Shown here piece by piece: positions 30,583 through 41,373 of a stretch of 41,373 bases of DNA. The DNA lies in contig JAJDUQ010000060.1 in assembly GCA_022826505.1 (NCBI GenBank), forward strand, positions 1 to 41,373. The letters are read 5' to 3'. The notes beneath the pieces are model-generated. The model worked only from the letters and a program-made list of their open reading frames with translations, was not told the origin of the DNA and searched no databases. Source of the DNA: Gammaproteobacteria bacterium. GTDB taxonomy: Bacteria; Pseudomonadota; Gammaproteobacteria; HK1. The number at the start of each line of letters is the position of its first letter. Within the stretch, counting starts at the first letter, position 1. The position numbers and the translations under genes were made by a program.

Positions 30583-30645
30583 TCGCCCGCGTGTCGCCTG
30601 CCGTGGCGCAGGTCTCACGGTTTGCCCCGTCGTCGGTTCCCGCCT

Positions 30646-31300
30646 ATGGCGCATGATTCTCGACCGACCAATCAGCCGCACGAGATGGGCCGGGGGAGGT
30701 GTCGTTTGTACTCGTCAGTACGAATCTCGGGCTATCGCGGGCTCGACTCGTTCCGCCTCGATGGCCTTGGCCGCATCAACCTGCTCGTCGGGACCAACAA
30801 CAGCGGCAAGACCTCGATTCTGGAGTGCATCGAGCTGCTTCGATCGGCGGGCAACGCGCGCGTCGTGACGACCATCCTGGGTCACCGCGGTGAATGGGGA
30901 TACAGCAGCGACGAGGAGCGTCAGGACTACCTCGACATCGCTCATCTATTCGCGCACCGCGATCCGTCCGGCAAGGATCACCTCAGCAGGATTTTTGCGG
31001 TGGTCTTGGGCACGACATCCACTGCGCTTTCGAGACGGCCCGAGCCAAGCCGTTCAGTTCATTGGAACCAACGGCATGACCGCGTTGGATGTCGTCCGGC
31101 TGTTCGACGACGTCGTTCTCACCGAGCGTGAATCCCACGTCACGGAAGCGCTTCGAATCATCGATCGGTCGAGCGCATTGCTTCCGTCGGGGCCGAACCA
31201 AGGCCCCTGCTGCGCGAAGCGCCGAGTGGCGTATTCCTGAAGCTGCGCGGTGCTCGACATCGCATCCCGATCGGCAGCTTGGGGGACGGATGGAGTCCTG
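30646..31300 (+). pseudogene. Frameshifted AAA-family ATPase relic
   Basis: ATG 30646 opens a frame with SVRISGYRGLDSFRLDGLGR and INLLVGTNNSGKTSILECIE (Walker A), the N terminus of an SMC/OLD-like AAA ATPase. Near 31000-31060 the reading moves to another frame, which gives TALDVVRLFDDVVLTERESH VTEALRIIDR. Near 31165-31175 it moves again to ERIASVG followed by GVFLKLRGARHRIPIGSLGDG. The signature region that should follow GDG (and Walker B) is missing. At least two frameshifts and a lost C terminus make it a dead gene. It marks the left edge of the defence island, pointing towards res. Confidence 0.75.
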
Positions 31301-35842: not shown

Positions 35843-38800
35843 TCAGGAGCTTCCGGGATGCACGGACGCGAGCGGTGGATCCGTGAGGTCGAGGCCGAAT
35901 GCCGCAATGCGGACATCATGCATGGAATCCGTCTCGATGACGCGCGCTTTGTCGTTGAGGAGTACGATCAATTCCGGAAATGTTGTCCGTTTCCTGGTTT
36001 CGGGGTGTACCCAGTACTGCTTTTCTCCGTGATAGGTCAGTAGCAGACAACCGGCCTTGCAGATCGAGTGTCGCAGATACTGCCCTGCCAGTTGGTTCCG
36101 GAGTGCTCGTTCGAGTTCGGCTGGCGTCCACTTGTCCGCGATCTTCACCTCGATGACCGCCTTCAGATCACGGTTCGCGACCGAAAGCCGGATATCCGGA
36201 TGCTTGTTGTCGGCGACCTCTTCCTCTCTGGCGACCTCGTAGGCGCCGTTCGCCCGTTGGCGGATTTCCCTGGCAAGGTTCCTCTGCATCTCCGGCTCGG
36301 TGCCGATTCCCCTGAGAGTCGGTCGGTTGGTGAAGTCGTCATGGGCCAAGTCATACGCGAGGTCGCCCAGCCGATCCATCATCACGGCGAACAGTGCGTC
36401 GCGGTCACGCGGTGGGGTCTCATGGCGGGCATCCAGCGCAATCACGTCTTCCGGATTGAACGCTGTGAACTCGGAGTCGATCGCCGCTCGTTGGCGAGCC
36501 TGGAACCGCAGCCGGTCCGCTTGGTGCGCAAAATCGCGTTCGTCTGCGAGTTCCAGCAGGACACGTCGGGCCTCGGATCCGGGGGTGTCGAGCAGCATCG
36601 AAAGCAGGAAGTTCCGAGCTTCCTGGGCATGATCCCGGGTATTCGGGGTGTGGACTCCTTCGTGAACCTGATCGTCCTCCCGTCGGACGAAGGCGTAGGC
36701 GTACCGGACAAGTTGCCCAAGGAGGTGGGCGCGTTGAGCCGCGTCCTCGACCTCGAACGCGACGGGGCTCCGGTCGCCAAAAAGCGCTGCGAACGTCTCG
36801 GTCGCACGATCGGATGAACCGGCGGCCTTCCCGTCTCCGAGACTCTGGATCAGCACCTGTGCTCCCTGGATCGTATCGAATTGGAACAAGCCCCTGAGCC
36901 AGGCGAGTGCAAGCGCACCGAGGGGATTCGTTTCGTAGCGGCTGGCACATTCCCGGGCGATCGTCTCCCGGTCCGCCACATCATCGGCCTCGGCCAGAAT
37001 GCGCAGCACACTGTCGAGATGACGTGCCCAATGCGGCTCGGTATCGATCGCGAAGTCGGTCGGCCACGACCGCAACTCGGTAATCATGCGAGGGACGAAG
37101 ATCAGCTTGAGACTGCTATCCGAGTGCGCCAAGTTCTGCAGGGTCCGGAGATGGCTATGGTCACCTCCCATGCCGAGTTCCGCGCTCACTTCTCCGCCTA
37201 TCACCTCTTTCACTTCCGTTGGATGCGACTTGGCCAAGTCGGTGATGAACGGCGCGAAGCCACCGATCTCGATGGTTGCGTACACTACCGCCGTGCGGGC
37301 TTCGCAGGACGACAGGGAGGCCGTCCACCCCGGAGTCGCGGCCTCGGCCGAGACACCCGTCAGCCCATGAGCCCAGTCGGGACGAATGCTGCCTTTCTCG
37401 TCGATTGGCCGTGCCGACCAGAGTACCGGGGGAGCAACACGCCAGAGCGCTCGGAGAGCGGTCTCGGCACGGTCGGCGATATCCCTCCTGAAGGCCTGCA
37501 CCAGCGCCTCCTTGTCCCATAGATTGAAACGATTCCGAGTTGGTTCATTCGCTTCGAGCCACGAGTAGAGGTTGGACACCGTCGCTCGTCCTTTTTCCGC
37601 CGAGAACGCGTCGTCGGGGCCGGCCAGCAACTCGTCACGCCATTTCCGCCATTTCTCCAGGCGCTGCGCTTCGCAGTAGGCCTGGTCGCGTTTCCAGCGC
37701 TCGTGATCGCGCTCCATCTCTTCGAACTTTTCGTTTGGCTCGGGCGGCTGAGTGCGCTGTTCCAGTATCCGAACAAGGAGCGCGTCTTTCCTCAGATGTG
37801 CGCGAATCGCATCAAGCTCCGTCGCTACCCGCCCTCGCTGATACCAGCCGTCAATCCAGGCATGCAGGGCAACCGTGTGTCGCTCCAGACGGCGCTCGTC
37901 CGCAAGAGCCGCCTCGAGCCAGGGTCGGTCAGCCTCGGTCAGATATCCTGCAATGCCTTCCTGCTCTGCGTGATGGAGACGTTGTCGGCCGTCGTCGGAC
38001 GGACTGACTTCGTCCATGAACGCCAGCTCAGCCCAAAACGCATCACTTCGCAGGGCAGCGTTTTCGTTGAAGTGCGCCCTGAGCTTGCGAACCGTCTCGC
38101 GTCCGCCGACCCTGCGACCTCCGAATCGCGAAGCGATCACGCTGGCGCGGATCAAGTCGGCATGCGGCTTGCCCGTCGTCGCCGACAACTGCCGATCGCA
38201 CAACATAGCGAGCGCAGGCGCGAGGTGACCGAACACGCTTTGAGCCTGGTACGAATCCTCCGTCCGTGTATGCCCCCGCCGGATGAGATCCGCCATCCTG
38301 TCCCGCAAGGCGGTGGCCGAATCGGATCCGGTCTCGATGTACCTGACAATCTGTCGTGACGCCCAATCAAACCCGCCAACGCTTTGCTTCGGCTCGCGAG
38401 TCCGCTCCATGAACGCAACCAACTCGTCGGCCGTGATGATCGCTGGAAATAGATCGGCTGCGACACCGTGCACGAGTCTATCGGGCCAGGACGTCGGTTC
38501 AGCCAACATCGCACCCGCAAGTTCACGCACGCTGCCGTTCCAACCGCAGGCAAGGAGGGCTCGGATTGCGGCAATGCGATCGTAATCTGGCGCTGCCGTG
38601 TCGAGTGCGACGCCATGGACCAAGTCGGCACAGGCCTCGACCGGCCCCAGGCGGATCAGATGGATCAGCAATTCGCGGACTTCTTCGTTCGCCGGCCCGC
38701 CCCCCCAGCACTCGCGTATCACCGTCGCAAGCTCCGGGTGTGCCAGCCTGCGCACTTCGGTGAACGGGATGTTCAGGCCGCGCCAGTCTCCTTGACCGTA

Positions 38801-40375
38801 CCTGGAAACGAACGCTCGCAGCAGTGCGCGGCGGGTCGCAAGGTCGAGCGACCCGGGATCGCCGTATGAGATCAGGGTCTCCGGCTCGCGTTCGATCAAC
38901 TCCTTGCGTACGGCATCGACCCAGAGGGCGAGCCACGCGGCAATCGCACGCATTGACGGAAGCACGACTTCGACGCCGTAGCGTTCGGCGAACAGCAGGC
39001 GGAATAGCGCCTTGATGGGCATGCCCGCCTCATGCAGAGCCCGCAAGCGTCGAGCCGCGAGGTACTCCTGAACCGAACGATGATGGAAACGAACACGGCC
39101 GTAGGTGGCGGGGTCGAAGAGGGCACGCCTGAGCAGCGCCTGCTGCTTCGCCGCAGTCCAATCGTGATCGCGAAGAACCTCCCCGGCATCAAGAACGCCC
39201 TCCGCACGGTAGCGGTCGAGTGTCTGATCGGGCGACCGGATGGTGCGTGTACGGATAAGCGCCAGAGCGAGCGCGAGACGCTCCGCGCCGAGTCGGGCCT
39301 GAGCATCGGCGAGCACATCTCGGTCTGGTCGGTCGGGGTCGCCCTCCAACTTGGCGATCACGTTTTCCTCATGTTGCTCCGCCCGAGTGCCGAGACGCCC
39401 CGTGCTCGACCAAGCCTCGATCAGATGGGTCAGGTCGAGAGGCCGGCGAGCGAAGACCCACGCATCCTGCCGTGCGATCTCCGCGAGAAACGCGGTCACG
39501 TCGTTCAGCCCGCGCCACTCCGCAAAGCATTCGATCTGCTCGCCGTTCATCGGAAGCATGGCAACCGTTCGCACGGTCTCTTGATTCGGAGGTTCCTGTT
39601 GTCCGTTGGCGGTATGCGGCGGTCTACCGCGCTGGCTGCTGAGCGCGTCGATGAACACCTCCTCCGATGACCGGGCGGACGAATCGCGACGTACCTCCGG
39701 CACCGGCAACCAGTGATGCACCGCGTTCAGGTCCGAACCTGAACGCCAATCGCTGGGACGACACGAGATGATGATGCGGGCGCGGTCGAGGTGACCGTCG
39801 ATTGCCCTTGCGAGCCGATTCAGTGCCCGGTGCAGCTTCCCCTGGGTCAGCTTCAGCTCGTCCACCGCGTCGAGGAAGAACCAGGCCGTTTCCTCGCCAT
39901 TGGTTCTCCACCGTCCGAGCCGTTCCTCCTCGGCAGCCGAAAGGATGTCGGCCACGGGATCTCGATCCAACGATTCCAGTGGGAGAAAAAAGGCGAATCG
40001 ATCTTCCCCTTTGAGGCGATTCGCCAGCTCCCGCATTTCGGCGGTTTTTCCGGCCCCAGCCTCCGCCAGCAGGATGACCCGGGTGTACTCCAGCAGCTTG
40101 GACCAGCCGATATCCGGGCCGAATTCGGACCCGCTCCAGGAGACAAGTACGTCGATATCTTCGAGCTCCGAGTCTGAAAGCTCGCGAAATCGCCGCTGAA
40201 GGTCGACAAATCCGGTCATGCGAGTCTCGATGTGAACATCGGCGAGGCTCTCGTTGTGCGAACTGACAGCCAATCCGCGAATTCGTGAGTCGCGTGCCTC
40301 AGCACCCATGGTCGGGAAACAGCCATATGTTGGCTCGCTGGTCGGCGTCCAGCCGGCGCGCCGACGAACAGTCAT
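35843..40375 (-). CDS. NACHT/STAND NTPase with C-terminal PD-(D/E)XK nuclease-like domain
   Basis: A giant 1510-aa protein. The N-terminal NTPase has Walker A LLAEAGAGKT (about 102-111), Walker B AWFFLDAVDEL (164-174) and IIISCRPSDW (201-210), the NACHT-type order. RFHHRSVQEYLAARRLR (429-445) is the conserved helix that closes many NACHT modules. Residues 450-1300 are mostly helical, repeat-like, with a charged helix near 880-920, suited to sensing a ligand. The end holds a nuclease-like motif: HPDIRLS (D1394), then VIEVKIADKW (E1409-x-K1411), then a Gln-containing helix (LRNQLAGQYL). Bacterial STAND proteins such as Avs sense phage proteins and then trigger an effector; Avs nucleases are usually N-terminal, here the order is reversed. 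The start is unsure (ATG 40309 and 40219 also possible). The antiphage role is inferred. Confidence 0.82.
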   Translation of the reverse strand: MTVRRRAGWTPTSEPTYGCFPTMGAEARDSRIRGLAVSSHNESLADVHIETRMTGFVDLQRRFRELSDSELEDIDVLVSWSGSEFGPDIGWSKLLEYTRVILLAEAGAGKTAEMRELANRLKGEDRFAFFLPLESLDRDPVADILSAAEEERLGRWRTNGEETAWFFLDAVDELKLTQGKLHRALNRLARAIDGHLDRARIIISCRPSDWRSGSDLNAVHHWLPVPEVRRDSSARSSEEVFIDALSSQRGRPPHTANGQQEPPNQETVRTVAMLPMNGEQIECFAEWRGLNDVTAFLAEIARQDAWVFARRPLDLTHLIEAWSSTGRLGTRAEQHEENVIAKLEGDPDRPDRDVLADAQARLGAERLALALALIRTRTIRSPDQTLDRYRAEGVLDAGEVLRDHDWTAAKQQALLRRALFDPATYGRVRFHHRSVQEYLAARRLRALHEAGMPIKALFRLLFAERYGVEVVLPSMRAIAAWLALWVDAVRKELIEREPETLISYGDPGSLDLATRRALLRAFVSRYGQGDWRGLNIPFTEVRRLAHPELATVIRECWGGGPANEEVRELLIHLIRLGPVEACADLVHGVALDTAAPDYDRIAAIRALLACGWNGSVRELAGAMLAEPTSWPDRLVHGVAADLFPAIITADELVAFMERTREPKQSVGGFDWASRQIVRYIETGSDSATALRDRMADLIRRGHTRTEDSYQAQSVFGHLAPALAMLCDRQLSATTGKPHADLIRASVIASRFGGRRVGGRETVRKLRAHFNENAALRSDAFWAELAFMDEVSPSDDGRQRLHHAEQEGIAGYLTEADRPWLEAALADERRLERHTVALHAWIDGWYQRGRVATELDAIRAHLRKDALLVRILEQRTQPPEPNEKFEEMERDHERWKRDQAYCEAQRLEKWRKWRDELLAGPDDAFSAEKGRATVSNLYSWLEANEPTRNRFNLWDKEALVQAFRRDIADRAETALRALWRVAPPVLWSARPIDEKGSIRPDWAHGLTGVSAEAATPGWTASLSSCEARTAVVYATIEIGGFAPFITDLAKSHPTEVKEVIGGEVSAELGMGGDHSHLRTLQNLAHSDSSLKLIFVPRMITELRSWPTDFAIDTEPHWARHLDSVLRILAEADDVADRETIARECASRYETNPLGALALAWLRGLFQFDTIQGAQVLIQSLGDGKAAGSSDRATETFAALFGDRSPVAFEVEDAAQRAHLLGQLVRYAYAFVRREDDQVHEGVHTPNTRDHAQEARNFLLSMLLDTPGSEARRVLLELADERDFAHQADRLRFQARQRAAIDSEFTAFNPEDVIALDARHETPPRDRDALFAVMMDRLGDLAYDLAHDDFTNRPTLRGIGTEPEMQRNLAREIRQRANGAYEVAREEEVADNKHPDIRLSVANRDLKAVIEVKIADKWTPAELERALRNQLAGQYLRHSICKAGCLLLTYHGEKQYWVHPETRKRTTFPELIVLLNDKARVIETDSMHDVRIAAFGLDLTDPPLASVHPGSS

Positions 40376-40534: not shown

Positions 40535-40945
40535 TCAGTCGTCGCCTTCCGGTTCATTGCCGCGATTTCGATTGGCCAGCATGGCCGTAATGATGCCGCC
40601 GAGCACCGCGCCGCCGAGAAACGCGACCGCCGCCGCCCCGCCTGCCCTGGCGGATGCCGACCGGGCCTGATCCCGGCTGTCGTGCACTTCGACGCCCTGC
40701 CTTTTCAGCTCCCGGACGATCTCGTCCACCTCCAGCATCAAGTCGCCGAGGGACACGCCGAGCGCGCTGGCGGCCTTGGCCAACTGGTCCATGTTGAGCG
40801 CAGAGGACCCCGCCTCGATGCGTGACCATGTCGAGCGGCTGACTCCGACACGCCGCGCCATCTCCTCCTGATCGATTCCTCTTTCCTTGCGCTTTTGCGC
40901 GATCAGTCGCCCCAGGACCGTCTGATAGGTGGTTTCGTTCTTCAT
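40535..40945 (-). CDS. XRE-family regulator with C-terminal membrane segment
   Basis: A 136-aa protein. Residues about 8-65 form a Cro/XRE helix-turn-helix (LIAQKRKERGIDQEEMARRV GVSRSTWSRIEAG, then LAKAASALGVSLGDLM). A short charged linker (residues 70-98) leads to one hydrophobic segment of about 24 residues (GGAAAVAFLGGAVLGGIITAML) and a polar tail. The membrane segment is unusual for an XRE regulator and suggests tethering to the inner membrane, or sensing there. It diverges from the viperin-like gene and lies upstream of the NACHT gene on the same strand. It may repress one or both through the palindromes on each side. Confidence 0.85.
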   Translation of the reverse strand: MKNETTYQTVLGRLIAQKRKERGIDQEEMARRVGVSRSTWSRIEAGSSALNMDQLAKAASALGVSLGDLMLEVDEIVRELKRQGVEVHDSRDQARSASARAGGAAAVAFLGGAVLGGIITAMLANRNRGNEPEGDD

Positions 40946-40959
40946 GTGGGAAAGATCTC

Positions 40960-41006
40960 TTGACTAATGTGCACTCTATGCACATGATTACATATGCGCG
41001 CATATG
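40960..41006 (+). promoter_or_regulatory. Promoter of the viperin-like gene with overlapping operators
   Basis: TTGACT (40960-40965) and CATGAT (40983-40988), spaced 17 nt, give a plausible sigma-70 promoter with a start near 40995. ATGTGCA-CTCTA-TGCACAT (40967-40985) occupies the spacer and touches the -10 box. CATATGCGCGCATATG (40991-41006), a perfect 16-bp palindrome, covers the start point. Centres are about 22 bp apart. A repressor bound here would block transcription. Confidence 0.6.
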
Positions 41007-41065
41007 CTCCTGGGGGCCATGTGCTTCGGGCGCCATTATGGTCCGCGCGACAATGGAGGGGCAAG

Positions 41066-41373
41066 ATGAAATCCGACGGCAGCGGCGGCTCGGGGCTGTC
41101 GATCAATTTCCACCTGATCGAAGCCTGCAACGCCAGATGTGCATACTGCTTCGCCACATTCCCGCACTTGGGCAAACGCGCCCGGCTCTCCTGCTCCGAC
41201 CGGGAGGCGCTGGTCGACCGGCTGGTCGACGTCGGCGTCGGCAAGATCAACTTCGCCGGCGGCGAGCCGACACTGATGCGTGACCTGGGGCCGCTCTGCA
41301 AGCGCATCAAGATTCGGAGCCGAGGACGGTGTGCGGTATCCCTCGTCACCAACGGCGCGCGGCTCGGGCCGTT
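41066..41373 (+). CDS. Prokaryotic viperin-like radical SAM enzyme (partial)
   Basis: The first 102 codons of a gene that runs off the window. INFHLIEACNARCAYCFATF carries the radical SAM cysteines C21-x3-C25-x2-C28. The CFATF tail of that motif, KINFAGGEPTL and SLVTNGARL are the phrases that mark prokaryotic viperins (pVips) and echo viperin's CNYKCGFCFHT and KINFSGGEP. Viperins convert nucleoside triphosphates to 3'-deoxy-3',4'-didehydro forms that terminate RNA synthesis, and pVips protect bacteria against phage. GGAGGGG lies 5 nt before ATG 41066. The C-terminal substrate region, and any linked nucleotide kinase, are outside the window. Confidence 0.88.
   Translation, partial: MKSDGSGGSGLSINFHLIEACNARCAYCFATFPHLGKRARLSCSDREALVDRLVDVGVGKINFAGGEPTLMRDLGPLCKRIKIRSRGRCAVSLVTNGARLGP

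Follow-up and report, generated by a model that had tools for sequence, protein, structure and literature searches.

A divergent HyoA-family NACHT protein with a predicted C-terminal nuclease domain in a gammaproteobacterial genome

The window analyzed here, a stretch of 41,373 nucleotides from a gammaproteobacterial genome, encodes a large protein which is, judged by its profile match, a divergent member of HyoA, an antiphage family that has already been named, and not a new system. We consider it likely that it acts as a single-gene antiphage protein, composed of a NACHT module, a helical solenoid and a tail nuclease that would cut DNA upon sensing of a phage. The view taken in the first-pass annotation, a STAND/NACHT protein with a role in defense, is supported as very probable. 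Coordinates of all features are collected in Table 1.

Table 1. Features of the HyoA-family gene and its surroundings, in window coordinates.
Feature	Position	Strand	Evidence and remarks
HyoA-family protein	35843..40375	-	longest ORF, 1510 codons; likely start ATG 40219 (residue 53), giving 1458 aa
NACHT NTPase domain core, residues 100-241	39653..40078	-	Pfam NACHT, conservation, model and fold search
FHHRSVQEYLAARRL segment, residues 430-444, end of NACHT module	39044..39088	-	R433 in 78/78
Alpha-helical solenoid, about residues 474-1345, probable sensor and spacer	36341..38956	-	two models; importin-type HEAT matches; sensor role inferred
C-terminal PD-(D/E)XK-type nuclease domain, residues 1360-1497	35885..36298	-	E1384, D1394, E1409-x-K1411, Q1428, Y1433, 78/78 each; topology; weak fold matches
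XRE regulator	40535-40945	-	Gly/Ala-rich hydrophobic stretch near C terminus, GGAAAVAFLGGAVLGGIITAML
Viperin-type radical SAM gene, first part	40994-41371	+	pVip, E 3.4e-21; runs off the contig end
Broken AAA_15/OLD-type ATPase gene remnant	30622-31240	+	PADLOC PDC-M38A, E 1.6e-20; beside the type III R-M genes

Family assignment and relatives

In NCBIfam release 20.0, the protein matches NF058534, 'NACHT domain-containing antiphage protein HyoA', a model of equivalog type, with 1304.2 bits at a cut-off of 1200; the genome search gives the same score. The alignment extends over positions 1-1428 of the 1430 model positions and residues 59-1498 of the protein. By this equivalog match a new family is ruled out, and the proposal of an uncharacterised defense family in the first-pass annotation does not hold, as NF058534 covers the protein end to end above its curated cut-off. 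That annotation had named close identity to a described family as an argument against novelty; here, the membership was found, at an identity to the higher-scoring HyoA members of 23-34%, compared to 57-60% for the nearest relatives.

Six scanned relatives score 1259.7-1386.4 bits against the HyoA model, and five other genome-search matches over the cut-off reach 1538-1617 bits, which places the window protein low in the range of accepted scores. Since its score is only about 100 bits over the cut-off, a distinct, unnamed defense family adjoining HyoA has to be weighed. The gap between the window protein with its six relatives (1260-1386 bits) and the five others points in this direction, as do the two ranges of identity. 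However, the end-to-end alignment, the same active site, the same domain order and scores above the equivalog cut-off all argue against a separate family, which we regard as very improbable. Like HyoA, the window protein has a NACHT module, a helical middle, the tail nuclease residues and no conserved partner gene. Among the 20 genomes behind the loci selected for the neighborhood survey, 19 carry a copy over the HyoA cut-off.

PADLOC 2023, the library of which includes Avs, returned no family for the protein at E values up to 1, and therefore the gene can look new. In the open-access literature, neither HyoA nor an antiphage EruA was found as the subject of a paper; the name HyoA occurs there only in mouse lung metabolism, and EruA denotes an E. 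coli regulator, not an antiphage protein. Because the primary paper was not found there, the antiphage activity of HyoA is taken from the NCBIfam name only.

For conservation analysis, 82 relatives were fetched, the best 80 of 369 from named genomes and two from viral contigs. The alignment comprises 78 full-length proteins, i.e., the window protein and 77 of the 82 relatives; L033, L059, L071, L094, and L107 were dropped for broken or short ORFs. Together with L105, these make up the six of 82 relatives that lack a complete HyoA frame as fetched. In L105, the match begins only at residue 171 and the Walker A motif is missing.

The sister family EruA (NF058535), likewise an equivalog model for a NACHT domain-containing antiphage protein, shares the tail residue set with HyoA but is separate from it. 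Against EruA, the window protein scores 190.8 bits over residues 267-1437 and does not reach the cut-off of 1000. EruA is the best match of seven proteins that are more distant; three exceed its cut-off (1210-1290 bits), the others do not reach it (841-921 bits), and in four of the seven the sequence is cut at the end of the locus. All six tail residues (E...D...ExK...Q...Y) are present in all seven, and on this basis we assign the order with NACHT first and nuclease last to both HyoA and EruA.

Domain architecture from start codon to tail

The ORF is uninterrupted on the minus strand, with 1510 codons (1510 amino acids) and no internal stop, and at E 0.001 it is the sole match in its own genome of 346 contigs. 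Translation more likely starts at ATG 40219 (M53) than at ATG 40375, because residues 1-50 are not conserved (mean 6% in the 78-protein alignment), the HyoA model aligns from residue 59 onwards, and the open frames of the four nearest relatives (L026, L027, L030, and L034) start at the equivalent of residues 28-47. By eye, a clear Shine-Dalgarno site is absent at both ATGs.

Pfam NACHT matches residues 100-241 (E 5.5e-8) and exceeds its gathering score. The Walker A motif reads EAGAGKT, with K110 kept in 77 of the 78 proteins, and the Walker B motif FFLDAVDE, with D169, D172, and E173 each kept in 77; L105 is the lone exception for K110, D169, and E173. In the RSVQEYLAARRL helix, R433 is invariant and E437 occurs in 77/78. 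Thus, Pfam and conservation bear out the Walker motifs and the RSVQEYLAARRL helix which the first-pass annotation had recognized in the N-terminal part. Its 'SCRP' segment holds in part: R206 is found in 78/78, while the serine (25/78) and the cysteine (23/78) are not conserved. Within the protein, the key positions of NACHT and tail fall between the 96.9th and 98.4th percentiles of conservation.

The NACHT module is followed by a long helical region. From about residue 474 to about residue 1345 the models show helices, and strands of at least three residues are absent; this amounts to about 870 residues and agrees with the claim of some 850 helical residues made before. Residues 53-1251 were modeled from 41 sequences (the window protein and 40 of the 77 relatives), yielding the NACHT module and then helices at a mean pLDDT of 84.6 and a pTM of 0.58. 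A Foldseek search of this model against the PDB matched 13 chains at E 0.001, headed by two chains of Avs4 in complex with a phage portal (8dgf; E 2.7e-7 and 1.5e-6), with NLRC4 in third place (E 7.2e-5); next come importin beta (1.2e-4), SAMD9 (1.3e-4) and further proteins of solenoid type. An N-terminal model with a search for the NACHT fold had been suggested in the first-pass annotation, and the matches to Avs4, NLRC4, and SAMD9 answer to this expectation. Many of the matches are solenoid proteins outside the STAND class. Normalized by query length, the TM-scores of the first ten matches reach only 0.12-0.19, with 0.18 for Avs4 (8dgf); we attribute these low values to the length and flexibility of the solenoids. 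We therefore take the matches as a similarity of kind.

The six tail residues listed in Table 1 are identical in all 78 aligned proteins. The last 286 residues were modeled with AlphaFold2 from 53 sequences (the window protein and 52 of the 77 relatives) at a mean pLDDT of 91.4 and a pTM of 0.76. In model numbering, to which 1224 is added to obtain that of the window protein, a helical part is followed by helix 136-149, strands 156-159, 171-174, and 181-188, helix 194-206, strand 215-224, helix 242-259, and strand 265-272. E1384 is located just after strand 1 and D1394 just before strand 2; strand 3 carries both E1409 and K1411, Q1428 lies in the next helix and Y1433 just behind it. The PD-(D/E)XK core has the order alpha-beta-beta-beta-alpha-beta. 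The modeled core follows this order and bears D...ExK on its beta sheet, in accordance with the arrangement of the superfamily.

Similarity searches with the tail gave less. Foldseek against the PDB found nothing at E 0.001, the best match being FokI (E 6.5e-3). McrBC, SwaI, BspD6I, PaqCI, MUS81-EME1, HindIII, PspGI, and an archaeal Holliday junction resolvase are among the 50 listed matches, mixed with unrelated folds such as acetyl-CoA carboxylase, caspases, and NSF. At E 1, no Pfam model matched the tail of the window protein itself; over all 53 tails, the matches listed (best 25 of 32 families) include no credible nuclease family, PDDEXK_4 appearing weakly in a single tail (E 0.17). Three PDB searches by sequence detected no credible solved relative (a single match at E 0.45 in one, best E 0.19 and 0.14 in the others), the profile search at 0.19 leading to superantigen-like proteins and to no nuclease. 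Because Foldseek is only weakly in favor, with no match at E 0.001, the fold call rests on residues and topology. Judged by these, the tail is a domain of PD-(D/E)XK type whose active site is complete. The nuclease signature D1394...E1409-x-K1411 proposed from sequence alone is thus supported by the invariant residues and the modeled topology. Of the C-terminal fold check proposed along with it, the core topology was obtained (pLDDT 91) and a Foldseek match at E 0.001 was not.

Nothing in the sequence or the model fixes the substrate of this domain. Folds of PD-(D/E)XK type include RNA-acting members, and the tail might be an RNase, or another nucleic-acid enzyme on this fold, that halts translation instead of cutting DNA. 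The nuclease entries among the 50 listed fold matches are, however, restriction or junction enzymes, which act on DNA, and the closest characterized analogues, bNACHT25 and bNACHT32, are DNases according to the available text of PMC12169576. We thus hold an RNA-directed tail to be highly unlikely and retain a DNA-cutting nuclease as our reading.

The position of this nuclease sets the protein apart from known systems. Fewer than 50 residues separate the likely start M53 from the NACHT match at residue 100, so there is no N-terminal effector. Avs4 (AVAST) is the best structural match of the NACHT-plus-solenoid model, which is a likeness of working parts and not of membership. Avs proteins carry their effector at the N terminus, the window protein at the C terminus, and membership in Avs/AVAST is ruled out by the C-terminal nuclease and the absent PADLOC match. 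In NLRC4, too, a repeat solenoid follows the NACHT module; this protein signals via an N-terminal CARD and has no nuclease. As far as the available part of PMC12169576 extends, bNACHT25 and bNACHT32 of clade 6 share a NACHT module and a PD-(D/E)XK DNase with the window protein; in both, however, the nuclease is N-terminal and the sensor C-terminal. An N-terminal PD-(D/E)XK effector is absent from the window protein, which does not belong to bNACHT clade 6 as described there (PMC12169576). The same text gives the usual bacterial NACHT order as N-terminal effector, central NACHT and C-terminal sensor (PMC12169576), and the DefensePredictor study, in the portion available, states that NACHT domains typically activate an N-terminal effector (PMC13092281). 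The reversed order with the nuclease at the C terminus, as read in the first-pass annotation, is borne out and is opposite to this usual arrangement (PMC12169576, same portion).

Distribution and genomic neighborhood

Of 299 genomes sampled from the phylum, 6 exceed the HyoA cut-off, the genome of the window among them; any match to the model at E 1e-20 occurs in 15 of the 299 and in none of 14 control genomes. A search of 274 genomes of the class with the window protein found matches in 8, again including its own. Among 72,556 plasmid records 62 match, 18 of them with a coverage of at least 80%. The nearest relatives (57-60% identity) belong to Thermohalobaculum, a Binatia, an uncultured gammaproteobacterium, and an Entotheonella. 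As these sit in different bacterial classes and phyla, we infer horizontal spread.

Two plasmid-borne homologues are annotated as hypothetical. The one on a Gluconobacter plasmid (L130) has a CHAT-domain gene and two hypothetical proteins upstream, while that on a Pseudomonas aeruginosa plasmid (L131) is located among IS elements.

In the window, the gene is accompanied by the XRE regulator (Pfam HTH_3, 1.2e-14) and by type III Mod and Res (PADLOC 3.4e-171 and 1.4e-163). By eye, the hydrophobic stretch of the XRE regulator suggests membrane anchoring. The viperin-type gene may continue on contig C197 of the same genome, since the window part covers positions 3-88 of the pVip model and the start of C197 (bases 30-626) matches positions 78-262. 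The AAA_15/OLD-type remnant is, from its sequence, a decayed gene; 92 residues match positions 3-95 of the 383-position model, and visual inspection suggests a frame change before the gene ends.

When these neighbors were used as queries at E 1e-5, the 82 relative loci, 50 of which hold at least 24 kb and the remainder shorter flanks, revealed one XRE-like, two Mod-like, and one AAA-like ORF; Res-like and radical-SAM-like ORFs were found in none of the 82. An operon with XRE, viperin or type III R-M as a general feature is therefore ruled out (at most 2/82 loci), and we regard these genes as local island content. Of the setting between an XRE regulator with viperin and a type III R-M system, emphasized in the first-pass annotation, the genes themselves are real, viperin as a first part only, but the setting is not common to HyoA loci. 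Nor was a conserved partner gene found: the commonest neighbor cluster occurs in 11 of 76 loci. We take this cluster to be a tyrosine-integrase-type ORF, which direct BLAST detected in 7 of 82 loci and in none of 20 control stretches.

The first-pass annotation had also suggested a neighborhood survey for defense enrichment. For this survey, 20 long-contig loci from the best 80 of 369 were each paired with a 20-kb stretch from another part of the same contig; the PADLOC scan covered 18 of the 20 pairs, with 214 neighbor ORFs and 247 control ORFs. Families listed were the best 25 of 53 and 25 of 94 for the HyoA loci, and all 7 and the best 25 of 53 for the controls. Among the matches listed, the 18 HyoA loci show IetA/IetS, SIR2-pAgo, SoFic, type III R-M, DISARM DrmA/DrmD, AbiEi, Septu PtuA/PtuB, ZorD, and a CBASS cyclase and effector. 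The matches listed for the 18 control stretches are mad3 (10 ORFs), DndA/SspA, RtcR types, orphan and type II methylases, GajB, DinG, RTasHel, PDC-S07, and PDC-S11. We read most of the control matches as housekeeping relatives; since PDC-S07, PDC-S11, and RTasHel are candidate-defense names, raw counts do not separate HyoA loci from controls. Two-partner systems, i.e., IetA with IetS, DrmA with DrmD, type III Mod with Res, PtuA with PtuB, and cyclase with effector, appear only at HyoA loci among the matches listed, a criterion chosen after the lists had been seen, with pairs counted across loci and not per locus. The survey gives moderate support to a preference of HyoA genes for defense islands, which would differ from their surroundings in kind rather than clearly in number.

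Proposed mode of action and its meaning

In the resting cell, the protein would be kept as a monomer, with its nuclease inactive, by the solenoid and the ADP-bound NACHT module. The trigger binding to the solenoid would be either a phage product or a change that the phage brings about in the host; ATP exchange would then let the NACHT modules oligomerize and bring the tail nucleases together, which would cut phage DNA, host DNA or both. Infection would be ended by DNA destruction and probably also by stopping the cell.

As a different possibility, the protein could be a targeted cutter of phage DNA rather than a suicide effector, its solenoid or NACHT module recognizing a phage nucleoprotein or DNA end and its tail cleaving the invading DNA alone, so that the cell would suffer little. 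A C-terminal nuclease could act directly on bound DNA, and the weak fold matches of the tail include FokI, McrBC, and PaqCI, which cut near recognized DNA. However, the fold matches of the NACHT part include the STAND proteins Avs4 and NLRC4, which are signal-gated oligomerizing proteins. Furthermore, for bNACHT25 and bNACHT32 the available text of PMC12169576 reports that protection needs the nuclease active site and that plasmid DNA, a proxy for host DNA, is degraded after infection. Targeted cutting is thus in our view unlikely, and we favor the signal-gated nuclease outlined above.

Tentatively, HyoA and EruA could together represent an 'effector-last' branch of bacterial NLR-like immunity, with the nuclease beyond the sensor solenoid and an activation differing from that of Avs and bNACHT25. 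If this reading is true, activation must join the tips of the solenoids and not domains beside the NACHT ring, because the nuclease lies beyond the solenoid. The order then raises the question of how the solenoid between NACHT and nuclease relays the signal.

The present analysis adds to HyoA a divergent member with a clear set of residues for mutation. It also shows how a gene that seems to be a new defense family, being absent from PADLOC 2023, may already be contained in NCBIfam. The protein is a bacterial relative of the NLR immune receptors of animals.
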